The notes beneath the pieces were generated by a model. It was not told the origin of the DNA. It saw nothing but the letters and a program-made list of their open reading frames with translations, and made no database searches. Shown here piece after piece: positions 36,107-51,261 of a stretch of 64,000 nt of DNA. This stretch comes from Janthinobacterium agaricidamnosum (lineage in GTDB: Bacteria; Pseudomonadota; Gammaproteobacteria; Burkholderiales; Burkholderiaceae_D). The number at the start of each line of letters is the position of its first letter. The first letter of the stretch is position 1. A program made the translations under genes and the position numbers. Location of the stretch: positions 4,278,001 through 4,342,000 of the forward strand of contig NZ_CP033019.1 in NCBI RefSeq assembly GCF_003667705.1, read 5' to 3'.

Positions 36107-36572
36107 ATCCCTGCTTCTCCATAATTTGTCAAAATTCCGCCTGAACTGTGCGTTTTACAGACTGATACCCACAATTTCTCGATTAAGATGATTTGAGGCA
36201 ATACCGCTGCGATGGTGCGAGTGTAGCAGGGCGCCGCCCTGTTGGTAAATCTCAAAACGCGCTTCCTGGTGCAAAGCTGGCCTACAAGAGCTTTTCCACA
36301 AGGAAATATGTGTTCCAGCTGTTGTATTTTGAAATACTACCATTGGCGTGCGTGCAAGACCACGCACAGCAGAAGAAATCCTGCTTCCGGGCGTCTGCGC
36401 AACAGCGCCACATGGACATCGTTGCAGCTACACACGATCTTTCTGCCAATGTTGTCTATACTGAAGGTGCAGTTGTATTGATAATTATCAAGTCTTTGCA
36501 TGAATACAATGCTGCCGCCGCGTCTACAATAAGAGGCGTTGCGCGCGCTCAGTCACCGCCAAAGGACCTGCC
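36107..36572. other. long AT-rich divergent intergenic region between cheZ and uspA
   Basis: This 466-bp stretch is clearly lower in GC than its flanks. Open frames inside it (for example 36193-36591) lack a ribosome binding site and have no recognisable protein pattern, so I see no gene. It contains a perfect FNR box at 36478-36491 and two TACAAT hexamers (36505-36510 and 36525-36530) as -10 candidates for uspA. Confidence 0.5.
36478..36491 (+). promoter_or_regulatory. FNR/ANR-type operator upstream of uspA
   Basis: TTGATAATTATCAA is an exact match to the FNR consensus TTGAT-N4-ATCAA. It is centred about 88 bp before the uspA start codon. An FNR-like regulator with a matching ETVSR recognition helix is encoded 1.6 kb downstream. 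Confidence 0.75.
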
Positions 36573-37040
36573 ATGTATAAGAAAATTCTGATCGCCACCG
36601 ATGGCTCCACCGTCTCCAACCTGACGGCCTGCGCCGGCGTTGCTTTTGCCGAACAGATGCACGCCGACATCCTTGCCTTGTATGTGGCGCCCGAATACCA
36701 GTACCCGGTGTACATCGAAATCATTCCGCCAAGCTATCCCAGCGAGGAGGAGTACCGCATCGCCATGCGCAAGGCCGGCGCCGACCACTGGCAGCCCATC
36801 CTCGACGCGGCCGCCAAGCGCGGCCTGGAAGCGACGGGCCTGACGGCCTTTTCCGACAGCCCGGCCCTGAAGATCGTGGAAGTGGCGCAATTGCAGCATT
36901 GCGATCTGATTTTCATGGGTTCGCATGGCCGCAGCGGCTGGGGGCAATTGCTGTTGGGCAGTGTGACCAATAAAGTGCTGTCGCACTCGAAATTGCCCGT
37001 GCTCGTGCATAGGCTGATCAAGGAACCCCCGTCCGAATAA
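36573..37040 (+). CDS. universal stress protein, UspA family
   Basis: A 155-residue single-domain Usp protein. It begins MYKKILIATDGSTVSNLTAC and ends with the ATP-binding signature MGSHGRSGWGQLLLGSVTNK followed by SKLPVLVHR, so it is of the ATP-binding type. A segment YPVYIEIIPPSYPSEEEY lies in the usual variable region. The upstream FNR box suggests induction at low oxygen. The NarL-type regulator follows after 154 bp. Confidence 0.93.
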   Translation: MYKKILIATDGSTVSNLTACAGVAFAEQMHADILALYVAPEYQYPVYIEIIPPSYPSEEEYRIAMRKAGADHWQPILDAAAKRGLEATGLTAFSDSPALKIVEVAQLQHCDLIFMGSHGRSGWGQLLLGSVTNKVLSHSKLPVLVHRLIKEPPSE

Positions 37041-37194
37041 GAGGTCACATGACCACCGGGGCCGCCGTTGCCGGCATATGCAGAAAAAGGCATAATGCGG
37101 CCGCCTCAGTTAAAATGACAACGTTTCTCGTTTCTCAACATTTGATTGTCCGGTGACGGACAGAGCAGATTTCACGCATCCAGATTGCCCGCCT

Positions 37195-37839
37195 ATGATA
37201 CGTATTGTAATTGCCGACGACCACACCATCATGCGAGAAGGCTTGAAGCGCATCCTTGACGGCGCGCCGGATATCGATATCGTGGGCGAAGCCATCGACG
37301 GCTTTGAAGTACTCAATCAGGTGCGCCAGGGCGGCTTCGACCTGCTGCTGCTCGACCTGTCAATGCCGGGCCGCAGCGGCGTCGACCTGATCCGGCAAAT
37401 CCGCAGCGAGGCGCCCAAGCTGGCCATCCTGATCCTCACCATGCACGAGGAAGAACAATATGCGGTGCGCGCCATCCGCGCCGGCGCACAAGGCTATCTA
37501 ACCAAGGAAAGCGCTGGTACCCAGCTCGTGGGCGCCATTCACAAGGTGGCGTCGGGACGCCCCTACATCAGCGCCGAGGTGGCCGAGCAGCTCGTGCTCA
37601 ACATCATGATGCCGAATGAAAGCTTGCTGCACAAACAGTTATCGGACCGCGAGTTCGAAGTCTTTTCCCTGCTGGTGGCGGGCAAGTCGATCACGGAAAT
37701 CGCCAACAACCTGCACCTGAGCGTGAAGACGGTGAGTACGCACAAGACGCGCATCATGCAAAAAATGGGCATGAGTTCGCTGTCCGAAATGGTGCAGTAC
37801 GCCGTGGCGCACCGCCTGCTCTCCCCCTTCAAGACGTAA
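37195..37839 (+). CDS. NarL/FixJ-family response regulator
   Basis: A 214-residue two-domain response regulator. The receiver has the acidic pair (IVIADDHTIM), phospho-acceptor Asp54 in LLLLDLSMPGRSG, and conserved Thr and Lys (ILTMHEEEQ; GYLTKESAG). The LuxR-type helix-turn-helix is LSDREFEVFSLLVAGKS to VKTVSTHKTRIMQKM. ATG 37195 (MIRIVIADDH) is the family start; the 14-codon extension to 37153 is not. No sensor kinase is adjacent, so it is an orphan in this window, placed between a Usp gene and an FNR-like gene. Confidence 0.92.
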   Translation: MIRIVIADDHTIMREGLKRILDGAPDIDIVGEAIDGFEVLNQVRQGGFDLLLLDLSMPGRSGVDLIRQIRSEAPKLAILILTMHEEEQYAVRAIRAGAQGYLTKESAGTQLVGAIHKVASGRPYISAEVAEQLVLNIMMPNESLLHKQLSDREFEVFSLLVAGKSITEIANNLHLSVKTVSTHKTRIMQKMGMSSLSEMVQYAVAHRLLSPFKT

Positions 37840-37868
37840 GCCCGGCGGCGCGCGCCCGCGCGTCGACC

Positions 37869-37884
37869 GTAGGAACAATCCTAC
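37869..37884. promoter_or_regulatory. inverted repeat GTAGGA-N4-TCCTAC upstream of the FNR-like gene
   Basis: A perfect 6-bp inverted repeat with a 4-bp spacer, followed at 37889-37897 by the smaller palindrome CTACCGTAG. No T-run follows, so an operator is more likely than a terminator. A binding site for the adjacent NarL-type regulator is a guess. Confidence 0.3.
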
Positions 37885-38111
37885 TCCCCTACCGTAGCTC
37901 CTACTGCCATATTCAGCCACTGCTGATATTAATTGCATATGGTTGTTGGCATACTGAAACCAGTAATCAAGTTGCTGGGAAGTTATTTCATCACACAGCA
38001 AGTCGTCAGCGAATTGAGCTTTACCAGCCTGGACGCGCGCCGCCCTTTCCCTGCCCGCCGTCTGCGCACCCTGTCATTCAACTCTGAACTACCTGTCACC
38101 AGGAGATGAAC

Positions 38112-38981
38112 ATGCTGTCCACGCAAACGCCCGAAACCCGCGCCGCCGCCCCATCGCTGGCCCCCTCTTCCCCGATGGAAGCAGGGCGCCAGCGCCAGGG
38201 GCGGCTATGGTCGAACCTGAAGGAAGTATGCGATCTGCTGCATATCTCCAGCGCCTGCACCATCGCCGCCGACGAACTGCTGTTCCAGCACGTGCAATTC
38301 AAGACGGGCCAGCGCGTGCATACCATCGGCCAACCGTTCGACACCTTGTACATCGTCAATTCGGGCTTCCTGAAAACCGTGCTCATCGACGAATTCGGCA
38401 ATGAACAGGTACTGAGCTTTCCCATGAAGGGCGACATGCTGGGCGTCGACGGCATCCACTCGCGCCACTACTCCTCGGAAGCGGTGGCCCTGTCCGACTG
38501 CGACCTGATCTTGTTGCCGTTCAAGAAGCTGACGGCGCTGGGACGTGTTCACCTGGAACTGGAAAACGTCATGTACGGCGTGATGAGCCGCGAACTGGTG
38601 CGCGAACAGGCGATGATCGGCATGCTGGGCGCCTTGAGCGCCGAAGCCCGCGTGGCGCGCTTCCTCGTCTCGCTGGCCGACCGCTTCGCGCAGATGGGCT
38701 ATTCGAGCAAGCTGTTCAACCTGCGCATGACGCGCCACGAAATCGGCAGCTACCTGGGCCTGACCCTGGAAACGGTGAGCCGCACTTTGTCCGCCTTCAA
38801 TGAAATCGGCCTGATCTCGGTTGACCAGCGCACCATCGGCATCAAGGATCCGGACGCCCTGAAAACCCTGCGCCGCTTGCCGCCGTCGCGCTCGCGCGCC
38901 AAGCAGCTGGCTGCCGCCAAGCTCAAGGCCGACACCACCGCCGCCGCGGCCGCCTCGGCGCAATTGCTGGCCACGATTTAA
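38112..38981 (+). CDS. Crp/Fnr-family transcriptional regulator
   Basis: A 289-residue regulator with a cyclic-nucleotide-binding-like sensor fold (residues about 55-170) and a C-terminal HTH. The recognition helix LTLETVSRTLSAF has the E-xx-S-R pattern of FNR proteins, so it should bind TTGAT-N4-ATCAA sites. Only three Cys are present (C40, C49 and C130), and the four-Cys cluster needed for an FNR [4Fe-4S] centre is not evident. ATG 38112 is chosen over ATG 38106 because AGGAG lies immediately before 38106 and six nt before 38112. An Ala-rich C-terminal tail is unusual. A strong terminator follows. Confidence 0.9.
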   Translation: MLSTQTPETRAAAPSLAPSSPMEAGRQRQGRLWSNLKEVCDLLHISSACTIAADELLFQHVQFKTGQRVHTIGQPFDTLYIVNSGFLKTVLIDEFGNEQVLSFPMKGDMLGVDGIHSRHYSSEAVALSDCDLILLPFKKLTALGRVHLELENVMYGVMSRELVREQAMIGMLGALSAEARVARFLVSLADRFAQMGYSSKLFNLRMTRHEIGSYLGLTLETVSRTLSAFNEIGLISVDQRTIGIKDPDALKTLRRLPPSRSRAKQLAAAKLKADTTAAAAASAQLLATI

Positions 38982-39016
38982 CGCCATCCCGATTTCTTCC
39001 AGCTTGGCACAGGCTT

Positions 39017-39056
39017 GACCCGACCAAGGCGCGCACCGCCTTGGCGGGTCTTTTTT
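39017..39056 (+). terminator. intrinsic terminator of the Crp/Fnr-family gene
   Basis: GACCCG-A-CCAAGGCG pairs with CGCCTTGG-CGGGTC around a 5-nt loop, with one bulged A, and is followed by six Ts. Confidence 0.85.
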
Positions 39057-39195
39057 GCTGCCGCTCCCCTTCCATGCCGCACCAATGGCCGTCTTCGCGC
39101 AGCGCCATGCTCCACGCTGCCATCCCATCGCAAAAAAGCACGGCTTGCGCATAAATAAGCCTTGCTTTTCGGGCCACATTCAACAATAATGCAAA

Positions 39196-39210
39196 TACGA
39201 ATCATTCTCA
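39196..39210 (+). promoter_or_regulatory. probable Fur box upstream of hemP
   Basis: TACGAATCATTCTCA matches the 7-1-7 Fur consensus TGATAAT-N-ATTATCA at 10 of 14 defined positions. It is centred about 30 bp before the hemP start. Control of hemP genes by Fur is well established in other Proteobacteria. Confidence 0.55.
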
Positions 39211-39232
39211 ACTGAGATAAAGAAAGCCCAAC

Positions 39233-39430
39233 ATGCAAAGCTCAAAACCAGCCTTGATCCAGGATGCCGCTACCGCCCACGTCCGTCCTCCCGTCAGCAT
39301 GGCCCAGCCGGCGCGCCGCATCACCAGCGAAGCGCTGCTGCAGCAGGGCCGCGAAGTGGAGATTGAGCACAGCGGCAAGATCTATCGCCTGCGCGTCACC
39401 CAATTGAACAAGCTGATCCTGACTGCCTGA
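39233..39430 (+). CDS. hemP: HemP/HmuP family hemin uptake protein
   Basis: A 65-residue protein whose C-terminal half has the HemP pattern: RRITSEALLQQGREVEIEH, then GKIYRLRVTQLNKLILTA. HmuP-type proteins are small regulators needed for haem receptor expression in some bacteria. Here no TonB-dependent haem receptor follows; instead a 108-residue unknown and a DUF2325 gene are downstream on the same strand. A Fur-like box precedes it, so it should be expressed under iron limitation. Confidence 0.88.
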   Translation: MQSSKPALIQDAATAHVRPPVSMAQPARRITSEALLQQGREVEIEHSGKIYRLRVTQLNKLILTA

Positions 39431-39515
39431 AGCAGCACGGCAGCCAGTCACCACGCTCGCCAGCCAGTCGCGCCCCGTGCGCGCAGCCAGCCAAACCACC
39501 GCACAGGAGTGTTTG

Positions 39516-39842
39516 ATGGCGAACGACCGACCTTCCTCGATGTTTCCTTCCCCGCAAGGCCAGCAGCCTGAATTGCTGCTGTCGGCCGTGCTGCACCTGA
39601 TGTCGCACTACCATGCGGACAGTCCCTGCGAGAAACTGGCCGCAGTCATCGAACGCCATCTGCAAGCGCTGGCCGGCTCGCCCGGCCTCGGCCCCGTGCT
39701 GCAAGCGACTTGCCAGCAACTGTCGCAGCAATGGGCCACCCTGGTGGCGCTGCACCGGCCCGCGCCGCCGAAGACCACCTTGCTCGAGCGCCTGGCACGC
39801 ATGCTGAGCGCCAGACGTCCTGCCTCGCCGCTGCCGCACTAA
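39516..39842 (+). CDS. hypothetical protein between hemP and the DUF2325 gene
   Basis: A 108-residue soluble protein that I do not recognise. It is predicted helical (LLSAVLHLMSHYHADSPCEK, AAVIERHLQALAGS, VLQATCQQLSQQWATLVALH) and ends in a basic stretch (LLERLARMLSARRP). ATG 39516 has a good ribosome binding site (AGGAG, 8 nt). The spacing to hemP (85 bp) and to the DUF2325 gene (48 bp) and the shared strand suggest a single iron-responsive operon. Codon use is like that of its neighbours, so it is likely a real gene. Confidence 0.7.
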   Translation: MANDRPSSMFPSPQGQQPELLLSAVLHLMSHYHADSPCEKLAAVIERHLQALAGSPGLGPVLQATCQQLSQQWATLVALHRPAPPKTTLLERLARMLSARRPASPLPH

Positions 39843-39890
39843 TTTCTATTTCTCTTCCACCGCTGCCCCACCGCCCAACAGGATATCGCC

Positions 39891-41120
39891 ATGTGTGACA
39901 AAGACCAGTCCCTGCCCGTCATCAGCAATTGCGCCCACGCCGACACGGAAACGGCCGCGCTCGCTTCGCGCCGCCGCCGGCTGTGGGAACTGTCGCATAC
40001 CTGCCATTGCCCGCTGGTCGGCGTAGGCTTGCCCTTGGGCTACCTGCGCAAGCTGGTGGGCAAGATGACGGGCGGGCGCGTGCTGGCCGACGACTACGAA
40101 GTGCACGTGGGCGCCGTGACGGAATGCGGCGCGCGCAACCGCCTGTCCGAAGCGCTGCAAAAGGAACTCGAACGCCGCTACGCTCCCGTGATCCTGCGCT
40201 TTCGCGGCGCCAAGACCACGGAACAGGTAGCGCAACTGTGGCGCACGGCCGTCGCCAACGGCGACGTGTCGGGCGCCTTCTGGGCCGGCCTGACGCACCC
40301 GCGCTGCGACGCCGAGCTGGAAGAGCAGATGTGCCGCGACTTGCACATGATCCAGCACCAGGCCGGCGCCTGCGTACGCGCCGACATGGGCAAATTTACG
40401 GCCTTGCAGGAAGAAAATGCGCGCCTGACGCAGGAACTGGCCAAGCTGCAGCAGCGCAGCCAGGCCGCACTGACGGAAAAAACGGGCGAACTGGAACGCC
40501 AGGAAGCCGTGCTGCTGCGCACGCGGGCCGAGTCCATCGGCAAGGATAGCGTGATCGACGGCTTGCGCGCGGAACTGGCGCAATTGCAGGCGGCCGTCCC
40601 GGCACTGGAATCGCGCACGCGCCTGGTCGAACGCCTGGCGCAAATGGATGAGCGCGAAAAGGAATTGCGCCAGCAAATCGCGGAATTGAAACAGGCCCAG
40701 CCGCGCCAAGCCGCCGGCGTGCCGCCACCGGCACCCAAGCTGGAAGTGCCGACCGGCGGCAAGCTGAAAATGCCGATCCGCCTCGTCGATCAAAGCGTCT
40801 TGTGCGTGGGCGGACGCAGCGGCAATGTCGCCACCTACCGCGCCCTGATCGAGCGGGTCGGCGCGCAGTTCGCCCACCACGACGGCGGCCTGGAAGACAA
40901 TGCCAACCTGCTCGACTCGAGCCTGGCGGCCGCCGACCTGGTGATTTGCCAGACGGGCTGCATCAGCCACAGCGCCTACTGGCGCGTGAAGGATTATTGC
41001 AAGCGCACGGGCAAGCGCTGCGTCTTCATCGACAACCCCAGCATCTCCAGCCTGGCGCGCGGCTTGCAGGAAGTGAGCGGCGAGATGGACACGGCGCCGC
41101 TGGCTGCGATCCAGCCATAA
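39891..41120 (+). CDS. DUF2325 domain protein with coiled-coil middle
   Basis: A 409-residue soluble protein. The first third is unannotated and has a Cys/His cluster (LSHTCHCPLVG) and a Gly-rich basic segment. Residues about 170-285 form a long coiled coil (LQEENARLTQELAKLQQRS; DEREKELRQQIAELKQ). The last 110 residues are a DUF2325 domain (VLCVGGRSGNVATYRALIER, HHDGGLEDN, ADLVICQTGCISHSAYWRVK, FIDNPSISSL). DUF2325 function is unsettled. Its position behind hemP points to haem or iron physiology, by inference. Confidence 0.85.
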   Translation: MCDKDQSLPVISNCAHADTETAALASRRRRLWELSHTCHCPLVGVGLPLGYLRKLVGKMTGGRVLADDYEVHVGAVTECGARNRLSEALQKELERRYAPVILRFRGAKTTEQVAQLWRTAVANGDVSGAFWAGLTHPRCDAELEEQMCRDLHMIQHQAGACVRADMGKFTALQEENARLTQELAKLQQRSQAALTEKTGELERQEAVLLRTRAESIGKDSVIDGLRAELAQLQAAVPALESRTRLVERLAQMDEREKELRQQIAELKQAQPRQAAGVPPPAPKLEVPTGGKLKMPIRLVDQSVLCVGGRSGNVATYRALIERVGAQFAHHDGGLEDNANLLDSSLAAADLVICQTGCISHSAYWRVKDYCKRTGKRCVFIDNPSISSLARGLQEVSGEMDTAPLAAIQP

Positions 41121-41135
41121 GCAATCGCTGCTGCA

Positions 41136-42500
41136 TTAATACACGTCGCGCCGGTAGCGCCCTTCGGCCGCCAGCGCGTCGAGCGCAGGCCGGCCCAGTA
41201 TCTCCTGCAGGGCCTGGTCTACACCGCCCGCCATGCCGGCCAGGCTGCCGCAGATATAGATGGCCGCGCCCTGCTCCAGCCACAGCTTGACTTCATCGGC
41301 ATTGCCGCGCAGGCGGTCCTGCACGTAGGTGCGCTCCGTCTGGTCGCGCGAAAACGCCAGGTCCAGGCGCGGCAGGTCGCCGCTGGCATGCCAGCCTTCA
41401 ATCTCTTCGCGATAATGAAAATCGTGGGCCAGGTTGCGCTCGCCAAAGATCAGCCAGTTGCGCCGCTGCCCTGCCAGCACGCGGCTCTTCAGGTGGCCGC
41501 GCAGACCGGCGATGCCGCTGCCGTTGCCGATCAAAATCAATGGCCGCTGGGCATTGTCTTCCAGCCGGAAGCGTTTATGCTGGCGCAAGCGCAGTTGCAC
41601 CACGTCGCCCACCTTGGCCTGCGCCGTGAGCCAGCCCGAGGCCCGGCCCAGGCTGCCGTCGGGATGCGCATGCTGGCGCACCAGCAAGTGCACGCCGCCA
41701 TCGCGCGGAATCGAAGCGATCGAATATTCGCGCGGCTGCGAGGGGTCGGCGGGCGCCGTCACCTGCACCAGGTCGCCCGACTGCCAGTCAGGCAAGCTGC
41801 CGGCCACGGGCGCCAGTTCCACGTGATAGATGGCGCCGCCCGCGCTGCCCGGGTTGAGCAGCTGCCTGTGCGTCAGGCGCCAGTCGCCGAAGGCGGGCGC
41901 GCTCCAGTCGGGCGCGTCGCTGGTGCCGGCCAGGTGACTCAGATGCTGGAACCATTGCTCGATGCTGACGCTGGCGCTGCGGTCGACTTCGATGCGCTCG
42001 AACAGGCGCGAGGCGCCCTGCGCCGCCAGCCAGGCATCGAGCGCGCGGCCGAAACCGCAAAACTGGCCATAGCTGCGGTCGCCCAGGGCCAGCACGGCGT
42101 AATGCAATTGCGGCAGCGCCAGCCCGCCCGTCATCAGGCGGCCCATGAAGGCGGCCGCATTGTCGGGCGCATCGCCTTCGCCATAGGTGCTGACTAAAAA
42201 CAGAGTCCGTTCGGCTTGTTGCAGATCAACGGCCGTGACTTCGGCCAGCGCGCACAGGCGCACGGGGATGCCGGCCAGTTGCAGGCTCTGCGCCGTTTGC
42301 GTGGCCAGTTCCTCGGCATTGCCCGTCTGGCTTGCATACGCCACCAGCCAGGCGGGACTGTTTGCCAGCGCCGCCTTGGCGGCGGCGGACGCGCGGCGCC
42401 TGGCGCGCGCGCGCAACCAAGGCGCCAGGCACACGCCCGCGTAGCTGAGGGACAGGGCCGCCAGCAAGGCCAGCCGCGTCGTATCGTGCGTAAAAATCAT
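41136..42500 (-). CDS. membrane-anchored flavodoxin/ferredoxin-reductase-type NADPH oxidoreductase
   Basis: A 454-residue diflavin reductase. A single N-terminal membrane helix (ALLAALSLSYAGVCLAPWL) is followed by a basic stop-transfer (RARARRR), placing the enzyme on the cytoplasmic face. The flavodoxin domain begins WLVAYASQTGNAEELATQTA and includes FLVSTYGEGDAP; the FAD domain has the motif REYSIAS; the NADPH domain has LILIGNGSGIAGLRGHL and a terminal aromatic (RRDVY). It is the last gene of the five-gene Fur-box operon and is the likely electron entry point, passing electrons from NADPH toward the membrane. Confidence 0.88.
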   Translation of the reverse strand: MIFTHDTTRLALLAALSLSYAGVCLAPWLRARARRRASAAAKAALANSPAWLVAYASQTGNAEELATQTAQSLQLAGIPVRLCALAEVTAVDLQQAERTLFLVSTYGEGDAPDNAAAFMGRLMTGGLALPQLHYAVLALGDRSYGQFCGFGRALDAWLAAQGASRLFERIEVDRSASVSIEQWFQHLSHLAGTSDAPDWSAPAFGDWRLTHRQLLNPGSAGGAIYHVELAPVAGSLPDWQSGDLVQVTAPADPSQPREYSIASIPRDGGVHLLVRQHAHPDGSLGRASGWLTAQAKVGDVVQLRLRQHKRFRLEDNAQRPLILIGNGSGIAGLRGHLKSRVLAGQRRNWLIFGERNLAHDFHYREEIEGWHASGDLPRLDLAFSRDQTERTYVQDRLRGNADEVKLWLEQGAAIYICGSLAGMAGGVDQALQEILGRPALDALAAEGRYRRDVY

Positions 42501-42512
42501 GGAATTAATCGT

Positions 42513-43541
42513 TCATTCGTCGAGCATGGCCAGCATGTGGCTGCTCAGCGTTTCGTGAAAGCCAGAGCCGTCGCGCTGCAGGAAGCGCGCGGCCAGGCCC
42601 TGCTCTTCGGCCAGCGCCATGCCGGCCTCGGCACCGAGCACGGTCAGGGCCGTCGACCAGGCGTCGGCCGCCATGCATTGCTCATGCACGACGGTGACGG
42701 AAGCGAGTTGATTGGCGATCGGCATGCCGCTGCGCGGATCGATGGTGTGTGAGAAACGCGCCGTGCCGTCCTGGAAGAAACGCCGGTAGTCGCCCGACGT
42801 GGCCACGGACAAGCCGTGCAGCGCCAGCAGCATTTCCGGCGGATGTAGATCCGCGTAGGCGCCATCGACCTGTTCCAGCATCACCCACCACGGCTGGCCG
42901 TCGGGCTTGCTGCCGGCGCCGCGCAGCTCGCCGCCCACTTCGACCAGGTAATGGCCGATGCCCTGCCTGTCCAGATAGCGCGCCAGGCGATCCACGCCAT
43001 ACCCCTTGGCGATGGCCGATAAATCGAGCTGCAAGCCGCCCGGCTGACGCGCGCGGCGGGCCGGCAAGTCCAGCTCCAGGCGGCGGCGCTGGCGCTGCGA
43101 CAGCAGCAAGGCCACCGTCTCTTTGTTCGGCGGCAGGAAACCGGGCTCGTCGTAGCGATGGCGGGGGCCGAAGCCCCACAGGTTGACGAGGACGCCCGCA
43201 CACGGGTCGTATGCGCCACCGGACGCCTGCGACACGTGCATGGCAAAGCCCAGCACCTCGCAAAAGGCGGCGGGCAGGCTGTGCCAGCTGCCGGGTTCGG
43301 CCCGGTTGAAGCGGCCCAGGTCGGACTCATCGCTCCAGTGACTCATTTGCGCCACGACCAGGTCCAGCTGCTGCTGCAAGCCCTGCTGCAGGTCGGCGCT
43401 GCCGGCGCGTCCCGGCATGGCGGACTCGAGCAGGCGCACCGACCAGCTGGTGCCCATGGTCAAGCCACGCAAGTCCCGGATCGCGGCGCCGGGCGGCGCG
43501 GCCTGATCGGAAATATGCTGCGGCAGCAGGACCCGGCGCAT
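42513..43541 (-). CDS. apbE: FAD:protein FMN transferase (ApbE)
   Basis: ApbE attaches FMN from FAD to a Thr in target proteins. Family landmarks are TMGTSWSVRL, the flavin-binding DLSAIAKGYGVDRLARYL followed by YLVEVGGELRGAG, the HTIDPRSGMP motif and the metal-binding CMAADAWSTALTVLG. Starting at ATG 43541 gives 342 residues but no signal peptide or lipobox; upstream codons in this frame are a shadow of the DUF4198 gene. Most ApbE proteins are periplasmic lipoproteins, so the location here is uncertain. The probable target, the DUF2271 protein, is encoded two genes upstream. Confidence 0.9.
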   Translation of the reverse strand: MRRVLLPQHISDQAAPPGAAIRDLRGLTMGTSWSVRLLESAMPGRAGSADLQQGLQQQLDLVVAQMSHWSDESDLGRFNRAEPGSWHSLPAAFCEVLGFAMHVSQASGGAYDPCAGVLVNLWGFGPRHRYDEPGFLPPNKETVALLLSQRQRRRLELDLPARRARQPGGLQLDLSAIAKGYGVDRLARYLDRQGIGHYLVEVGGELRGAGSKPDGQPWWVMLEQVDGAYADLHPPEMLLALHGLSVATSGDYRRFFQDGTARFSHTIDPRSGMPIANQLASVTVVHEQCMAADAWSTALTVLGAEAGMALAEEQGLAARFLQRDGSGFHETLSSHMLAMLDE

Positions 43542-43567
43542 CGGCGAGCTCGTGACGATGCCGCCGC

Positions 43568-44392
43568 TTACTGCGGCAGCACTTCCACGGTGGCCGCGTA
43601 GGTCATGCGGCGCTCCGGCATGGCTGGCGGCTGGCCGGCCACGGCCGGGGCGGCCGCTGGCCAGGTGCTGCTCAGGTAATACATGCCGGCGGCCGGCACG
43701 GTGAACGTGATCTCGCCCTTGGCATCGGTGCTCTGGCGGATTTCCCCCAGCACGCCACGGTAGCGCACGCCGCCCGGCACCAGGCTGAAGGCCTGATTCG
43801 CGGCCGGCTTGCCGTCGATCAGGAAGCGCCACGTGGCTTTTTCGCCCGCGCGCAAGTCGTTCGGATGGGTCACCGGCACGAATTCCAGGCCCACGCCCGT
43901 CGGCTTGAACACTTCCGTGCTGGTTTCGCCATTGCTGAAGAAAGTTTCCAGCCGCGCTGCCGTGCGCGTGATTTTCAGCTCTTGCGCGTCGGCCGGCACT
44001 TCCTTCTTGAACGTCTCTTCATTGCCGCGGAAACGCTTCTGCTCGCCATTGAGCTTGTAGCTGCCCATCACGTTTTGCGACACGATGGCCGCTTTATACG
44101 TGCCCGGCTTTTCCATTTTTACGTCGAAGACGCTGCGCAAACGGCCCGTGAGCGTATTCGCCGGCGCCACTTTCGCGCCATCGGGGCCGGTCACTTGCAG
44201 CGCATCCAGGCGCAGCGGCTGGTGGTCGATCTCGAACAGGCCGTCGGAGACGGCAGCGTCCACCGTCACCCAGGCGTCCTTGCTTTCCACCATCGTGCTC
44301 GATGGCACCATCCAGCCCCGGTGGGCGTGGGCATTCATGGCCAGGCCGGCCAGCGCCAGGGCGATCAGCGGTTTATTCAGTTGCTTCAACAT
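43568..44392 (-). CDS. DUF4198 domain periplasmic protein
   Basis: A 274-residue exported protein with a signal peptide (LIALALAGLAMNAHA) directly followed by HRGWMVPSSTMVE, the typical start of DUF4198 proteins, which are often found with nickel, cobalt or iron uptake functions. The rest looks like two beta-rich domains (VTVDAAVSDGLFEIDHQ; ATWRFLIDGKPAANQAFSLV). It lies between DUF2271 and ApbE with short spacings (12 and 26 nt), so it belongs to the Fur-box operon. Its exact role is unknown; a ligand- or metal-binding role outside the membrane is inferred. Confidence 0.85.
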   Translation of the reverse strand: MLKQLNKPLIALALAGLAMNAHAHRGWMVPSSTMVESKDAWVTVDAAVSDGLFEIDHQPLRLDALQVTGPDGAKVAPANTLTGRLRSVFDVKMEKPGTYKAAIVSQNVMGSYKLNGEQKRFRGNEETFKKEVPADAQELKITRTAARLETFFSNGETSTEVFKPTGVGLEFVPVTHPNDLRAGEKATWRFLIDGKPAANQAFSLVPGGVRYRGVLGEIRQSTDAKGEITFTVPAAGMYYLSSTWPAAAPAVAGQPPAMPERRMTYAATVEVLPQ

Positions 44393-44404
44393 GGTAGAGG
44401 CGCC

Positions 44405-44920
44405 TTAAGGTTTGAGTTGGACGACGACATTGCCGAGTTCTTCCTTGCCCTTGCCAGGAACGGACTGGGCCGATTTCAGCGGCCACTGGAACGGCACGCG
44501 CACCAGTTCGCGTCCGCCCGCTTCGCGTGCCGCTTCCACCACCACCTGGTATTCGCCGGCCGGCAGCTTGTCGAGCAAGGCCTTGGCGCCAGGGAAAGTC
44601 AGGGTATGTTCGCCCGGCGCGCGCGTGGCGCCGCTGACGCCGTCCACTGGCATGGCCAGGTCGCGGCCGCTCTTGCGCCACCATTGACGCATGTCCTTCA
44701 GCCATTTTTCGCCCGCCTTGTCCTTCTTTTTCACGTCATACAGCACAGCCAGATTGCCAACGACCTTTTGATCGGCCGTTTCCAGCCACGCCGCCACGTA
44801 GGGGCGGTGGTATTCCGCCACGTTCAGTTGCGGGATTTCAAGCTTCAGGGACAGGTCGGCAGCCATCGCCGACGTACCGATCAGGGGAAGGCCAAGCGCC
44901 AGGGAGTAGCGTAATTTCAT
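44405..44920 (-). CDS. DUF2271 periplasmic protein with ApbE flavinylation motif
   Basis: A 171-residue exported protein. The signal peptide (YSLALGLPLIGTSAMA) is followed by a beta-rich DUF2271 domain (LSLKLEIPQLNVAEYHRPYV). Residues 93-100 read DGVSGATR, which fits the motif D-G-x-[ST]-G-A-T to which ApbE links FMN, making Thr99 the likely flavin site. It is thus the probable electron carrier of the operon. It follows the PepSY-type membrane gene by 31 nt and precedes the DUF4198 gene by 12 nt. Confidence 0.88.
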   Translation of the reverse strand: MKLRYSLALGLPLIGTSAMAADLSLKLEIPQLNVAEYHRPYVAAWLETADQKVVGNLAVLYDVKKKDKAGEKWLKDMRQWWRKSGRDLAMPVDGVSGATRAPGEHTLTFPGAKALLDKLPAGEYQVVVEAAREAGGRELVRVPFQWPLKSAQSVPGKGKEELGNVVVQLKP

Positions 44921-44951
44921 GGTGTGCCTGTAAAAAGGAAAAATAAAAACA

Positions 44952-45605
44952 TCAGTGGATAAACAGCAAGGCGATCGCGCAAGGTATCAGAATGCCGAGG
45001 CCAACCATCGGCCACGTAAATGGCCGGTTGGCCGCGTGGAACTTCAAAATCAATAGCCCCGTCAGGCAAAACACGATGCAGGCGCCGGCAAAGATGTCGA
45101 TGAACCAGCTCCAGGCGACGCCCGTGTTGCGGCCCTTGTGCACGTCGTTGAGCCAGGACACCCAGCCCCGGTCCGTCAATTCATATTCGGCGGCCCCGTC
45201 TTCCAGGCCGATGCGCACCCAGGCGTCGCCGCCTGCCTTGGGCAACGGCAAATACACTTCGTCGATCGACCATTCGGCGGGACGCCCGCCCGCGTTGAGC
45301 GACCACTGCTGCTTGAGCCAGGTTTCCGCGGCGGCCGGCATCGGTGCATTGGCGCCGTCATGCCCGGTGGCAAAGGCGGCCAGTTCCGTGACGAGGGGCG
45401 CCGGCAACTGCGCCTTCTGGCGCGTGATCGACGGTTTCGACTCGATCTGACCGGCGTGGTTCAGGGTGATGCCGGTGATGGCGAACAAAAACATGCCCAG
45501 CAAACAAAGTGCCGAGCTGATCCAGTGCCATTGATGCAAGTTCTTCAGCCAGACGGCGCGGCTGGCGTTGTTCCTGGCCTTGTCGGCGGCGCCCGCACTA
45601 TGCAT
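44952..45605 (-). CDS. PepSY-associated membrane protein
   Basis: A 217-residue inner-membrane protein with a first helix led by WLKNLHQWHWISSALCLLGM and FAITGITLNH, a periplasmic domain of about 100 residues, then a His-containing juncture (SWLNDVHKGRNTG) and two or three C-terminal helices (DIFAGACIVFCLTGLLIL; WPMVGLGILIPCAIALLF). The arrangement matches PepSY-associated TM proteins, where paired His on the helices (HQWHW, NH, VHKG) can bind haem and pass electrons across the membrane. It is the first gene after the perfect Fur box, and GGGAGCGG serves as ribosome binding site. Confidence 0.85.
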   Translation of the reverse strand: MHSAGAADKARNNASRAVWLKNLHQWHWISSALCLLGMFLFAITGITLNHAGQIESKPSITRQKAQLPAPLVTELAAFATGHDGANAPMPAAAETWLKQQWSLNAGGRPAEWSIDEVYLPLPKAGGDAWVRIGLEDGAAEYELTDRGWVSWLNDVHKGRNTGVAWSWFIDIFAGACIVFCLTGLLILKFHAANRPFTWPMVGLGILIPCAIALLFIH

Positions 45606-45699
45606 GCTCCGCTCCCGGCAAGGGGCGGGCCAGCTGGCGCGACAAGTCAGTGTGCTTCATTCCCATCCTTCAATCAGAGTGCATGCCGATATTTCAAAC

Positions 45700-45720
45700 A
45701 AATGATAATGATTATCATTT
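45700..45720 (-). promoter_or_regulatory. perfect Fur box of the PepSY-DUF2271-DUF4198-apbE-reductase operon
   Basis: A 10-1-10 perfect palindrome centred on G45710 contains TGATAATGATTATCA (45703-45717), identical to the 7-1-7 Fur consensus. It is 95 bp before the PepSY-type gene. The divergent gene at 45868 is 148 bp away and could also be affected. Confidence 0.92.
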
Positions 45721-45867
45721 ATTAAGTCAAGACATGGGGCGCCCCGCCGGGCCGGCGTTTTGTAACAGCTTTGAAACAAAGCACCGCTGCTACGTAAGCT
45801 GCCGTACAGAGCCGCATACAGCAAGCGCCTATGCTTGTTGTTCAGGACAACCAACAAGGGAGCACCC

Positions 45868-46365
45868 ATGCAATCGTATTCCAGCGAACAACTGGCCAGC
45901 ATCGCGGCCAAGATCAAGGACGTCAAATTCGGCATGCTGACCACCAGCGACGACATGCGCACCCTCACCAGCCGGCCGCTGACGCAGCAGCAGGTCGATA
46001 ACGAAGGGCAGATCTGGTTCTTTGTTTCCGACGAGGCCAACTATACGCGCGACTTGCTGAACAATCCGCAAGTCAATGTCAGCTTCGTCGACACGGGCGA
46101 CAGCCTGTATGTATCCGTCTGCGGCCACGCGCAGCTGCTGAAAGACCGCGCCAAGGCGGAGGAATTGTGGAATCCGCTCGTGAAAGCCTGGTTCCCGGGC
46201 GGGCTCGACGATCCGAAGCTGTCGCTGATCAAGGTGACGATCCAGTCGGCCGAGTATTGGGATAGCAGCGCCAGCAAGATGATGCAATTCTATGAAATGG
46301 CCAAGGCCGCCATCACGGGCGAGCCGCCGAAAGACATGGGCGAACACGGCCGGGTCGATCTGTAG
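45868..46365 (+). CDS. pyridoxamine 5'-phosphate oxidase-like (general stress protein 26 type) protein
   Basis: A 165-residue split-barrel flavin-binding protein related to general stress protein 26. Typical segments are KFGMLTTSDD, LTSRPLTQQQVDNEGQIWFF, VNVSFVDTGDSLYVSVCGHA and LWNPLVKAWFPGGLDDPKL. Members usually bind FMN or related cofactors; the physiological role is unclear and a true PNPOx activity is unlikely. ATG 45868 with AAGGGAG upstream is preferred over an 11-codon extension. Confidence 0.9.
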   Translation: MQSYSSEQLASIAAKIKDVKFGMLTTSDDMRTLTSRPLTQQQVDNEGQIWFFVSDEANYTRDLLNNPQVNVSFVDTGDSLYVSVCGHAQLLKDRAKAEELWNPLVKAWFPGGLDDPKLSLIKVTIQSAEYWDSSASKMMQFYEMAKAAITGEPPKDMGEHGRVDL

Positions 46366-46380
46366 CAGATTTACCCTATT

Positions 46381-46392
46381 TTACCCGGGTAA
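46381..46392 (+). promoter_or_regulatory. palindromic operator 1 (TTACCCGGGTAA)
   Basis: A perfect 12-bp palindrome. It lies 57 bp before the DUF2239 start, with a second ACCCGGGT-centred site 27 bp downstream, almost three helical turns away. It looks like a paired operator for a dimeric repressor that is not encoded here. Confidence 0.55.
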
Positions 46393-46407
46393 TATTGACT
46401 TTCTATT

Positions 46408-46419
46408 TAACCCGGGTAA
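46408..46419 (+). promoter_or_regulatory. palindromic operator 2 (ACCCGGGT core)
   Basis: TAACCCGGGTAA shares the ACCCGGGT core (46410-46417) with operator 1 and has AT-rich flanks with one mismatch in the symmetry. It ends 30 bp before the DUF2239 start. Confidence 0.5.
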
Positions 46420-46449
46420 AATTGCCTGCATTCCCCATGGAGGCAAGAC

Positions 46450-47058
46450 ATGCATACCCCCGCACCACCTCAGCTCACCGCCTTTGCCGGCAAGCGAAAA
46501 GTCGCCGCCGGCCCTTTACATGCGCTTGCGCAAACACTGAAGGAACTGGTGACGCGCGATCCCGATGCGCAGATCCTGATTTTCGACGATGCCAGCGGCA
46601 GCCAGGTCGACCTGAACCTGCACGGCAGCCTGGCCGACGTGCTGCAGCGCCTGCCTCGCGCGGCAACGCCGGCGCCGCAGGACGACGCTCCCGCCCCGGC
46701 GCGCACGGCAGGCCGCCCGAAGCTGGGCGTCGTGGCGCGCGAAATCACTTTGCTGCCCCGTCACTGGGAATGGCTGGCGACGCAGCCGGGCGGCGCTTCC
46801 GTCGCCTTGCGCAAACTGGTGGAACACGCGCAGCGCGGCAACAAGCTGCACGATGAGCAGCGCCAGGCACGCGAAGCGGCCTATAAAGTCATGAATGCGC
46901 TGGCCGGCGATGCGCCAGGCTTCGAGGAAGCAAGCCGCGCCCTGTTCGCCGGCAAGCAAGCAGCGTTTCTCGCATGCGTACAGGAATGGCCAGCGGACGT
47001 GCGCGAACACGTCTTGCAGCTGGCCCGGCGCGCGTGGCTTGAGAGTGAAGAAAGTTAG
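46450..47058 (+). CDS. DUF2239 family protein
   Basis: A 202-residue soluble protein of the DUF2239 family, whose function is unknown. The N-terminal part has the family pattern LTAFAGKRKVAAGPLHALAQ and ILIFDDASGSQVDLNLHGS. A Pro/Ala linker leads to a helical C-terminal domain (RPKLGVVAREITLLPRHWEW; GASVALRKLVEHAQRGNK) that resembles a DNA-binding or adaptor module. Two ACCCGGGT palindromes lie just upstream, so it appears to be under a dedicated repressor. It is monocistronic and convergent with the next small gene. Confidence 0.85.
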   Translation: MHTPAPPQLTAFAGKRKVAAGPLHALAQTLKELVTRDPDAQILIFDDASGSQVDLNLHGSLADVLQRLPRAATPAPQDDAPAPARTAGRPKLGVVAREITLLPRHWEWLATQPGGASVALRKLVEHAQRGNKLHDEQRQAREAAYKVMNALAGDAPGFEEASRALFAGKQAAFLACVQEWPADVREHVLQLARRAWLESEES

Positions 47059-47067
47059 GCGGCCAGA

Positions 47068-47334
47068 TCAGACGCCCGTACTGCCCGTGGTGTCGGGCGC
47101 ATCGTCGGCGCTCTGCCGGCTCTGCCCGGCGGAGCCGGACTGGTGATGGGGCAGGCGGTCGGCGCGCCGCACCTCGCCGATGGAAAACAGATCGTCGCCG
47201 ATATCGAGCCCTTGCTCGCTATCGACCAGCACAAAGTTCTCGGCAGAATCGGCCGTACTTTGCTTGTTGCCTGCCACGGACGGCGTGCCGCCCTGGCTAT
47301 TGCCGGCTTGCGGCGTGGTGGAGTTGCCCATCAT
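47068..47334 (-). CDS. small hypothetical hydrophilic protein
   Basis: An 88-residue (or 87 from ATG 47331) protein with no family I recognise. It is rich in Ser, Gly, Asn, Gln and Asp, with a more ordered centre (ENFVLVDSEQGLDIGDDLFS) and a Ser/Asp-rich end; it is probably disordered. A clear ribosome binding site (AGGGAG) precedes the double ATG, which is the main support for a real gene. It lies between the DUF2239 gene and a KGG-type stress protein gene. Confidence 0.5.
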   Translation of the reverse strand: MMGNSTTPQAGNSQGGTPSVAGNKQSTADSAENFVLVDSEQGLDIGDDLFSIGEVRRADRLPHHQSGSAGQSRQSADDAPDTTGSTGV

Positions 47335-47528
47335 CTTCTCCCTGATCGTGAGTGCGATTTGACTGCGTTGACTGCGTGTCGGCCGTGGCCGGCGCAGCTA
47401 TTTCATCATAGTCCATGCCTGCTGCGTTGCATCAAAATTTTGCGGCAGCCAAATAAGCGTGGCCCTGACCAGCGGCGTGCCTGCTTCCCGCTGGCCAGAG
47501 CCACTTGCAACTTGCTACTCAGCTGGCG

Positions 47529-47909
47529 CTACTTGTTGCGCGACCCGGAGCTGGAACCGGACCCGGAACCGCCGCTTTGCTTGTTGCCACTGTCACGGTT
47601 GCCCTCCTGGTTCATGCTGGCGTTATCGCGCGAACCGCTGGAGCTGGAGGCGCTTTGCCGGTTGGCATCGTTCTTGTGGCTTTGGCTGCCTGCGCGGCGG
47701 GCCTCTTCCGACGTGAATTCATGGGCCGTGCCTTTTTCATGCGCGGCACGTCCGCCTTCGCTGGCGATTTCGCGCTGCTGGGCGGGGTCCATGGAAGCGA
47801 AACCCCGCTTGCTGGTATCGCTTTGCTTGCTGCCGCCGCTGCCGCCGCTGCTACTGCTACTGCTACTGGTTTTACTACCTTGCTGTTTATTGTCGCTCGA
47901 TGTGGCCAT
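47529..47909 (-). CDS. KGG-motif stress-induced-type protein
   Basis: A 126-residue, very hydrophilic, Ser/Gly-rich protein. The core (KRGFASMDPAQQREIASEGG, RAAHEKGTAHEF and SEEARRAGSQ) matches the KGG/Con-10 type repeat of stress-induced proteins such as E. coli YciG. The flanks are low-complexity Ser/Gly tracts. ATG 47909 has a GGAG ribosome binding site; the 21-codon longer frame is less likely. Such proteins are often induced by desiccation, osmotic stress or stationary phase; the mechanism is unknown. Confidence 0.82.
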   Translation of the reverse strand: MATSSDNKQQGSKTSSSSSSSGGSGGSKQSDTSKRGFASMDPAQQREIASEGGRAAHEKGTAHEFTSEEARRAGSQSHKNDANRQSASSSSGSRDNASMNQEGNRDSGNKQSGGSGSGSSSGSRNK

Positions 47910-48102
47910 GATGATCTCCTTGATCGATGGAATCGGAAACAGTGCAAACCATGCAATTCTTCCCCCTCGCATGGCAAGGGAACCGTCATCTTAGTGCGCA
48001 CATGGGGCACAAGAAATAGGAGGATGGCAAGAGCGCATGTAGGATGAGTCCCGCTCACGGTGGCGTAGTTACTTTCAGTTTTACACCAAAAGTATCTAAC
48101 AC

Positions 48103-48792
48103 TCAGCAGTTGGCGGGCAGCGGAAAAATCGCCGCGTCGGCCGTCACGTACACGCGCTCGCCAGTGCCTGGCAGCACCGCATGGCCGCCCGTGAAGGCGC
48201 CAAACGAGGGCAGGATGGCGCGCTGTTGGCCCAGCAGGAAACACGGCAGGCGCAGGCCGCCGCCGTGCGCTCCGCTCCCTTTGGCACGCAAGTGAAACAC
48301 GGGATGCACGTGGCCCGCCAGCACGTAGCCGGGCGCGACGGTGTCCGGGTGATGGCAGAACGACAGCTTGCCCACCTGGTGCGGTTCATCGACCATGCGG
48401 ATGCCCAGCGCGGCGGCCGGATCGCCCGCATGCGCGTCATGGTTGCCGCGCACCACCGTCAGGCGCACGTCGCGATGACGCATGCGCCACGCCAGCATGG
48501 CCGCCACGGTGGCGGCCGCATGGGCGGCGCGCGCGTGCAAAAAATCGCCGAGAAAGACGATTTCCTCGCAGGCGTAACTGGCCAGCAAGGCGTCGAGCGC
48601 CAGCAGGTTTTGCGTGGTGGTGCCGCGCGGCACGGGCACGCCCAGCGCGCGAAACGCCGCCGCCTTGCCGAAATGGATGTCGGCAACGATCAATATCCTG
48701 CGCGCCGGCCAGTACACGGCCTTGTGCGCCAGCAGCCAGACCAGCTCGCCGGCCAGCTCCACCGCGCAATGCGCCTGCTCCTGTCCCTTCAT
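48103..48792 (-). CDS. ligase-associated metallophosphoesterase (PdeM-type)
   Basis: A 229-residue calcineurin-like phosphoesterase with the full motif set: [35 protein letters not shown] and [10 protein letters not shown]. This is the fourth component of the ligase-associated DNA damage response cassette, in which related enzymes are metal-dependent DNA endonucleases or phosphodiesterases. Its ATG overlaps the helicase stop by 4 nt, so it is translated together with it. It is the last gene of the operon. Confidence 0.92.
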
Positions 48793-51254
48793 GCGGCCGC
48801 CTTTTCCAGCGCCAGCACCAGCCGCGCCACCCGGTCCGACAGTTTTTCCGTCGTCAGCTGTTCGCGGAAGCGCTCGACCATCAGGCCGAAGGCAAATGGC
48901 GAGGCGCGCTCCAGCGCTTGCAGGCAGATGCTGCGTCCATGCAGTTCGCGCAAGGTGGCGCGCAGGCGCGTCAGTTCCAGTTCCTGCTCCAGCACTTCGC
49001 GCTGCGCCTGCGTGAGCAGCAAATTGGCCGCGTCGTGCTTGCGGAACACTTCAAAGAACAGCGAGGACGACGCTTGCAGCTGGCGCGCGCTTTTCGGCTG
49101 GCCTGGATAGCCCTGGAACACGAGGCCGGCGATGCGGGCGATTTCGCGGAAACGCCGCTGCGACAGTTCCGTCGCGTTCAGGCTGGCCAGCACGTCTTCG
49201 AGCAAGTTGTCCGTTCTGAACAGGGGAAGATCGGCACCGCTGGCGGCCGTCAGCAGCGGCGCAAAATCGATATCGTCCGCGCCCAGCAGTTCAAAGCCGT
49301 AATCGTTGACGGCGATCGACAAGGTGGCCGGCTGCACGCGCGCGATGCGATAGGCCAGCAGGGATGCCAGGCCCAGGTGCACGGAGCGGCCCGCAAACGG
49401 ATACACGAACAGGTGATGGCCCTCGCGGCTGGACAAGGTTTCCAGCAGCAGGCTGGCGCGCGTGGGCAGGCTGGACCATTTCTGCTGGATGGCCAGCAGG
49501 GGCGCCAGCGCGCGCATTTCCGGCCCGCTGGCACGGCCCTCCTGCGCCAGCTGCAGCTGGTCCAGCACGGCATGCGCCAGCTCCGACGACAGCGGCATCT
49601 TGCCGCCCTGCCAGCGCGGCACGGCACCGCGGCTGCCCGTGGCGCGCCGCACGTAGGCCGTCATCTCATGCACGCGCACGAATTCCAGGATACGCCCGCC
49701 AAACAGAAAATGGTCGCCCTGCTTCAGGCGCGCGATGAACGATTCCTCGATGCTGCCGATGCGCGCCCCGCCGAGGAATTTGACCTGGATCGCCGCTTCC
49801 GAGACGATGGTGCCGATGCTCATGCGGTGGCGCCGTGCCAGCGCCAGGTCCGGCACGCGGTAGACGCCTGCATCGTCCGGCAGCACTCTGCGGTATTCCG
49901 GGTACACGGTCAGGCTTTGCCCGCCGCGCGCGACGAAGTCGAGCGCCCATTGCCACTCGTCCGGCGTCAGGTGGCGATACGACCAGGCCGCGCGCACTTC
50001 CGCGTACAGGGCCGGCGAGTCGAAACCGCCGCCCAGCGCGATCGTCACCAGGTGCTGCACCAGCACGTCGAGCGGCTTGTCCGGCACGGGCCGCGCTTCT
50101 AGGTGGCCCTGCGCCAGGGCAGCGCGGGCGGCGGCCGCTTCCAGCAATTCCAGGCTGTTGGTGGGCACCAGGGTGACGCGCGAAATGCGCCCCGGCGCGT
50201 GGCCGCTGCGCCCCGCCCGCTGCACCAGGCGCGCGATGCCTTTCGCGCTGCCCACCTGCAGCACCCGTTCGACGGGCAGGAAATCGACGCCCAGGTCCAG
50301 GCTGGACGTGCACACGACGGCTTTCAGCTCGCCCGTCTTCAGGTGCTGCTCGACCCACTCGCGCACTTCGCGGTCCAGCGAACCGTGGTGCAGGGCGATC
50401 AGGCCGGCCCAGTCGGGGCGCGCATCGAGCAAGTGCTGGTACCACAGCTCGGCCTGCGAACGCGTGTTGGTGAACACCAGGGTGGTGGCGCTGCCCTCGA
50501 TCTCGGCGATCAGCGGCTGCAGCATCTGGATGCCCAGGTGGCCGCCCCAGGGAAAGCGCGTGGGATTGACGGGAATCAGACTGTCGACAAGGATGCGCTT
50601 TTTGACTTTACCTTCGACCAGCACGCCATCGCTTTGTTCTCCCAGCAAGACGTCCTGCGCCTGCCGCAGATTGCCCAGGGTAGCCGACAAGCCCCACGTC
50701 ATCAAGGTTGCATTCCAGCGGCGCAAACGGGCCAGCGCCAGCTGCACCTGCACGCCGCGCTTGCTGCCCATCAATTCATGCCACTCGTCGACGATCACCG
50801 TTTCCAGCAGGCTGAAGCGTTCCTGCGCGTCCGCCTGGCTCAGCATCAGGGACAGGCTTTCCGGCGTCGTGACGAGCACCTCGGGCCACGCTTTCGCCTG
50901 CCGCGCCCGCTGCGCGGCGCTCGTATCGCCCGTGCGCGCCTCGATGCGCCAGCCGGGCGCCAGCGTTTCGCCGGACGCCTGCAGCGCGCGCACGGTGTCG
51001 GCCGCCAGCGCCCGCATGGGCGTGATCCACAGCACGCGCATGCCCTGCTTCCTGCCCTTGCGTTGTAGCCGCTCGGCGCGCAGCAAGGCGCCGAACCACA
51101 CGGCATACGTCTTGCCGGACCCTGTACTCGCATGCAGCAAGCCGGACTGGCCCTGCGCGCCAGCGCGCCAGACGGCGCGCTGGAAAGGAAAGATCGTCCA
51201 GCCGCGCCCCGTGAACCACGCATCGATGCGCTGCGCCAGCGCGCTTTTACTCAT
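48789..51254 (-). CDS. ligase-associated DEXH-box DNA helicase (Lhr-core type)
   Basis: An 821-residue superfamily 2 helicase. Walker A is in [15 protein letters not shown], the DExH box in [15 protein letters not shown], motif III in [10 protein letters not shown], and motif VI in [14 protein letters not shown]. The C-terminal Lhr-type winged-helix and beta-barrel parts follow. Homologues described from Pseudomonas form a four-gene repair cluster with an ATP-dependent ligase, an MBL nuclease and a phosphoesterase, the same set as here. It is 7 nt from the ligase gene and overlaps the phosphoesterase gene by 4 nt. Confidence 0.93.
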
Positions 51255-51261
51255 CGCCTGC

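Follow-up and report, generated by a model that had tools for sequence, protein, structure and literature searches.

A PepSY-type flavin operon with a predicted Fur box in Janthinobacterium agaricidamnosum, and its ApbE without a recognisable export signal

Five genes on one strand of a 64,000-nucleotide stretch of Janthinobacterium agaricidamnosum DNA (contig NZ_CP033019.1, positions 4,278,001 to 4,342,000; the whole stretch is referred to as the window) encode a PepSY-type membrane protein, a DUF2271 protein, a DUF4198 protein, the flavin transferase ApbE and a flavodoxin-type reductase. On balance, we favour the reading that this operon forms a PepSY-type flavin electron path that is on in iron starvation, with a DUF2271 carrier that is flavinylated before Sec export. 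Because the operon ApbE has no recognisable export signal whereas DUF2271 has one, flavin mononucleotide (FMN) is probably attached in the cytoplasm. The system as such is already known, and the window operon adds another example of it, with a testable puzzle in the topology of ApbE.

ApbE and its substrate

Signal peptides were judged by reading, by a lipobox pattern and by the hydrophobicity of charge-free 11-mers (threshold 1.8). The N-terminus of the window ApbE, MRRVLLPQHISDQAAPPG, contains no signal peptide with a lipobox, the mark of a periplasmic lipoprotein ApbE, and that of the window DUF2271 protein, MKLRYSLALGLPLIGTSAMA, reads as a Sec-type signal. The missing export signal, which the original prediction overlooked, was seen in the window ApbE and in nearly all loci examined. 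The 101 loci comprised the window and 100 hand-picked PF10029 places (~14 kb each), annotated with profiles built from the window proteins. Five of 75 unfused ApbEs (68 from PepSY operons and seven of a second group) had a charge-free 11-mer hydrophobicity of at least 1.8, compared with 91 of 93 DUF4198 proteins; by reading, three of the five (L058, L065, L103) have lipoprotein signals and two (L035, L127) have RVLIP-like N-termini.

Public ApbE records, taken irrespective of gene context, came from the L051 search (120 records, 111 usable) and the L106 search (120 records, 105 usable). A lipobox was found in 0/111 and 1/105 of their N-termini, respectively, the hydrophobicity threshold was reached in 3/111 and 4/105, and a [VI][LFIVA][IVL]P stretch was present in 107/111 and 104/105. 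The same stretch occurs in a Caulobacter vibrioides ApbE whose database record starts MPRVLVPAIATPPARPVGG and which is signal-less like the window ApbE; the record is not tied to CC3062 of the Caulobacter operon described below, and Caulobacter belongs to another class of Proteobacteria than J. agaricidamnosum. Two Andreprevotia ApbEs (P0170 and P0208), from a genus related to that of A. ursilacus, are also without a signal. In the operon ApbEs, a conserved RVL[IV]P-like stretch stands where a signal peptide would be (e.g., window 43541-43500, minus strand), and it could dock ApbE to its substrate or to the membrane.

The sequence bears out the DGVSGATR motif first read in the DUF2271 protein, with its Thr as residue 99. 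Conservation of DGxSGAT among operon DUF2271 proteins, on which the original prediction had staked its reading, held for the flavin residue (Thr in 93 and Ser in one of 94 alignment rows), and the exact [ST]GA[ST] was kept in 62/94. The SGA part varies (TSPT, TQPT, TGPT) around a constant Thr, even with a local ApbE (e.g., L042, L052, L093, L094, L096, L098, L099). Three further ideas were tried and set aside. A cytosolic alternative substrate within the operon was dropped, as a scan of the four operon proteins besides DUF2271 gave no D..[ST]GA[ST] match (0/59, 0/68, 0/69 and 0/68); the pattern is strict, since its last four letters are those kept in no more than two-thirds of the DUF2271 rows. 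Export of DUF2271 by twin-arginine translocation (Tat) was dropped with an RRx[FLVIM]-type stretch in 3/69 proteins and any twin Arg in 6/64 signals. Signal hydrophobicity was considered as a mark of modification before export: the DUF2271 signal was less hydrophobic than the DUF4198 signal in 51/64 loci with a signal-less ApbE versus 14/22 others (DUF2271 signal hydrophobicity between groups, p = 0.008; difference of differences, p = 0.0004, one row dropped), which, with one independent pair on supported branches, is a hint only.

The simplest reading of these sequences, and a likely one, is that attachment comes ahead of Sec export: the operon ApbE would take cytosolic flavin adenine dinucleotide (FAD), attach FMN in the cytoplasm to a linear seven-residue motif of the DUF2271 precursor, and Sec export would follow. 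The passage of large groups through SecYEG is reportedly the subject of Bonardi 2011. A seven-residue motif is enough for ApbE (review PMC12052999). More tentatively, a whole clade of iron-starvation operons might flavinylate its periplasmic carrier in the cytoplasm, with a signal-less ApbE reading the motif of the unfolded DUF2271 precursor and the FMN-bearing chain passing SecYEG.

The main competing explanation is that some unknown or weak export route carries ApbE out of the cytoplasm, the RVLIP-like N-terminus being a poor signal, and that DUF2271 is flavinylated in the periplasm. Several observations weigh in its favour and against cytoplasmic attachment. Thirteen genomes had operons without apbE; one remote ApbE was read in each of seven of them, and all seven were lipoprotein-like. 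ApbE-DUF2271 fusions (L074, L075, L076, L126, L128, L130) have signal-like starts, which would locate the enzyme with its substrate outside the cytoplasm. In a quick tree of 88 ApbEs, three changes were needed for the 64 signal-less ones; the two lipoprotein ApbEs of L058 and L103 lay inside the signal-less clade (support 92), and that of L065 lay among the remote lipoproteins. A few RVLIP N-termini are also fairly hydrophobic. However, most ApbE N-termini are short, rich in proline and devoid of a lipobox, and they are often charged. Of 67 loci, 19 signal-less ones (20 if L065 is included) have an in-frame stop at most 40 codons ahead of the catalytic start. We regard export of the operon ApbE as unlikely.

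Conservation of the operon and published relatives

The original reading of five same-strand genes was borne out by the coordinates and by Pfam matches for all five (Table 1), with gaps of 31, 12, 26 and 12 nucleotides between consecutive genes, as read from the sequence. The reductase also gave a partial match to CysJ (267.9 bits, under the CysJ cut-off of 668).

Table 1 Features of the operon and its upstream region, in window positions
Feature	Position	Strand	Support
PepSY_TM_like_2 membrane protein, 217 amino acids	44952..45605	-	PF16357 5.9e-78, PF03929 9.6e-10
DUF2271 protein, 171 amino acids, Sec-type signal peptide (by reading), DGVSGAT with Thr99	44405..44920	-	PF10029 8.8e-51
DUF4198 protein, 274 amino acids, predicted mature start His24	43568..44392	-	PF10670 1.2e-51
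ApbE flavin transferase, 342 amino acids, without recognisable signal peptide	42513..43541	-	PF02424 1.3e-77
Flavodoxin + NAD(P)H-binding reductase, 454 amino acids, N-terminal hydrophobic anchor	41136..42500	-	PF00258 2.4e-28, PF00175 1.6e-8
Perfect Fur-box-like palindrome AATGATAATGATTATCATT, 19 bp	45701..45719	.	Pattern match, 0 mismatches
Sigma70-like promoter TTGACT-17-TATCAT, overlaps Fur box	45702..45730	-	10/12 matches, consensus scan only

PepSY, DUF2271, DUF4198 and an unfused ApbE occurred together in 68/101 loci, 59 of which also had the reductase. The gene order of the window, with all five genes on one strand, was found in 56 of these 59 complete loci; of the three exceptions, L037 showed ApbE as a fragment, L083 had duplicated genes and L127 had DUF4198 away from the others. 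All five genes were present in 77 of 80 named relatives, the best being 99% identical and from Janthinobacterium. The five-gene cluster is not due to chance, because its gene set and order are kept across the loci of relatives. In overlapping samples of genomes, DUF2271 (PF10029) scored above the family cut-off in 29/97 genomes of the taxonomic family, 60/399 of the order, 7/276 of the class and 82/396 of the phylum. Duplicate DUF4198 and DUF2271 genes adjoin the operon in L083. Six loci (L116, L118, L121, L122, L124, L125) have PepSY, DUF2271, DUF4198 and ApbE with no match to the window reductase, and these may use another electron donor.

Histidines of the PepSY protein were conserved among the 84 of 91 proteins that could be aligned: H27 and H156 in 84/84 each, H190 in 69/84 and H50 in 67/84. 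In the AlphaFold model (predicted local distance difference test, pLDDT, 95.6), the long helix 3-49 contains H27 and is followed directly by H50, and H156 lies just ahead of helix 163-191 with H190 at the helix end. In sequence and model, pairs of conserved His lie towards either end of the membrane helices, as in a two-haem protein of the FoxB type, and the PepSY protein is predicted to be a two-haem cytochrome with the pairs H27/H190 and H50/H156. The PepSY siderophore reductases FoxB and HiuB are likewise PepSY membrane proteins with paired haem histidines (PMC11334425, PMC13001220).

The suspicion in the original prediction that the parts might not be new was justified. Meheust et al. 2021 (PMC8238504) described 3220 PepSY-like clusters, 2833 with DUF2271 and 1500 with DUF4198, and these flavinylation systems resemble the window in having a PepSY membrane protein, a DUF2271 substrate, DUF4198, ApbE and a proposed iron link. 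The window has the marks of such a system, namely a PF03929/PF16357 protein, clustered ApbE, DUF2271 and DUF4198, and a [S/T]GA[S/T] motif. The further claim that the biochemistry was undescribed was right only in part, as it has been published that the cognate ApbE flavinylates the A. ursilacus DUF2271 and that a Thr-to-Ala change abolishes this (PMC8238504). In the available parts of that paper, a signal in any of four genes sufficed for a cluster to be retained, and the signal-less operon ApbE was not discussed. Neither this ApbE nor the histidine and fold features of DUF4198 given below were raised for this cluster in the portions of the literature at hand. A literature search found no title or abstract opening on flavinylation before export; full texts were not checked for this subject.

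Fur site, iron and metal binding

The perfect Fur palindrome of the original prediction was confirmed: the Fur pattern AATGATAATNATTATCATT matched it with 0 mismatches, and shuffled sequences gave 0 matches. This predicted site at the promoter is, by sequence, that of a Fur regulon member. Upstream of PepSY, the best Fur match was at least 15/18 in 27/90 loci, a score never reached by shuffled upstream regions (20 per region); in the other 63/90 the best match was at most 14, within a range largely overlapping that of the shuffles. A divergent Pyrid_ox_like (PNPOx-type) gene (window 45868-46365, plus strand; its domain scan ran from an upstream start at 45835) starts ~150 bp from the Fur box, and its protein likely binds FMN.

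The original prediction had suggested a neighbourhood survey for siderophore receptors. A TonB-dependent receptor lay near the operon in 38/90 regions versus 0/40 other regions (40 of the same genomes), a comparison whose p-value is too strong because the rows are related, and none was found in window 35000-52000. The whole genome (6.4 Mb) contained 72 TonB-dependent receptor matches and one FeoB match. In Alteromonas, DUF4198 and DUF2271 pairs adjoin iron-responsive receptors (PMC7190382).

A close published counterpart is Caulobacter crescentus CC3059-3063 (CCNA_03155-03159), whose five genes match those of the window in type and order (PMC3751524, PMC12004947). This operon was reported in 2013 to be Fur-regulated, on the basis of arrays and promoter lacZ tests, with table values of 12 to 51 for the five genes, which we take to be fold changes (iron limitation and fur mutant) (PMC3751524); in 2025, its mutants were reported to lose fitness in ethylenediaminetetraacetic acid (EDTA) (PMC12004947). 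That the cluster is an iron-starvation electron path is well supported, because the Caulobacter operon type is Fur-regulated and needed for fitness in EDTA; we infer the electron transfer itself and iron as the acceptor. Three parts of the original pathway fit both the sequence and published work (PMC8238504, PMC3751524, PMC12004947): the control by Fur, the flavinylation of DUF2271 and the role in acquiring iron. In the path we propose, NADPH (reduced nicotinamide adenine dinucleotide phosphate) would feed the membrane-anchored flavodoxin/FNR reductase, the two predicted PepSY haems would take the electrons through the membrane, and DUF2271 would hand them to periplasmic ferric iron by way of the FMN predicted on its Thr99. 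DUF4198 would bind metal in the periplasm, perhaps the Fe(II) produced.

Another point missed by the original prediction is the fold of DUF4198, which is that of two solved metal-binding proteins, IsDUF4198 (9GCB) and Zcp (9MHI-9MHO). The first residue after the predicted cleavage of the window protein was His in 93/93 sequences of the alignment column (sequences not cut at this His), and 119/120 public DUF4198 proteins have a first-residue His, the remaining one beginning later. Beyond this first residue, the positions compared with the solved proteins by numbering are seldom or never His in the operon proteins. For His18, the second ligand of IsDUF4198, mature position 18 is Trp in the window protein and His in 0/78, by numbering only, because the 9GCB sequence was not found by profile search; Zcp residues 29 and 31 would correspond to mature positions 9 and 11 if counted from 21, with His in 4/78 and 1/78, respectively. 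The operon DUF4198 proteins instead share His34 (63/78) and His153 (69/78), unlike the IsDUF4198 and Zcp positions. In the PDB entries 9MHI-9MHO, the molecule name of Zcp reads phosphoribosylglycinamide formyltransferase, which is apparently a labelling error.

Metal binding bears on a second alternative, in which the path reduces copper, nickel or a periplasmic thiol rather than iron carriers and Fur only sets the timing. It draws on the binding of Ni by a DUF4198 protein (PMC12537917) and on Zcp structures with Zn, Cu or Co (entry titles of 9MHI-9MHO), which count against iron as the acceptor. However, the Fur boxes, the TonB receptor neighbours, and the EDTA fitness and Fur data of Caulobacter make it decidedly unlikely.

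Other ApbE copies and the site of flavin attachment

A second group of signal-less ApbEs lies beside a match to the reductase (L077, L078, L079, L081, L082, L131, L132), with a divergent DUF2271 carrying a [ND]G[VI]TGAS motif in L077 and L131. The J. agaricidamnosum genome itself encodes a second ApbE (L002, 600712-601524), which begins MQRRTFISAA in the manner of a Tat signal. It is flanked by a sigma54-type regulator on one side and, on the other, by a Fer4_5 (PF12801) membrane protein that reads as NosR-like. The start and the neighbour of this second ApbE speak for it as the exported enzyme that flavinylates DUF2271 in this strain, leaving the operon ApbE another cytosolic job, but we consider this very improbable, as 40/64 genomes with a signal-less operon copy yielded no further ApbE, the operon ApbE stays between DUF4198 and the reductase, and no operon protein except DUF2271 carries the motif.

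A 2025 review describes ApbE as typically membrane-anchored and periplasmic, with the route of FAD to it still obscure (PMC12052999). The cytosolic ApbE of Klebsiella resembles the window ApbE in having no signal peptide, but its target is a soluble cytoplasmic fumarate reductase, in contrast to the exported DUF2271 here (PMC12052999). Since a widespread signal-less ApbE, often the sole ApbE found, shares one operon with an exported substrate, the site of flavinylation is directly testable. Cofactor proteins usually mature after Sec or travel folded via Tat, a rule that a covalently bound crossing would go against. If attachment does precede export, the Sec channel passes a redox cofactor in covalently bound form, and FAD export would not be needed.

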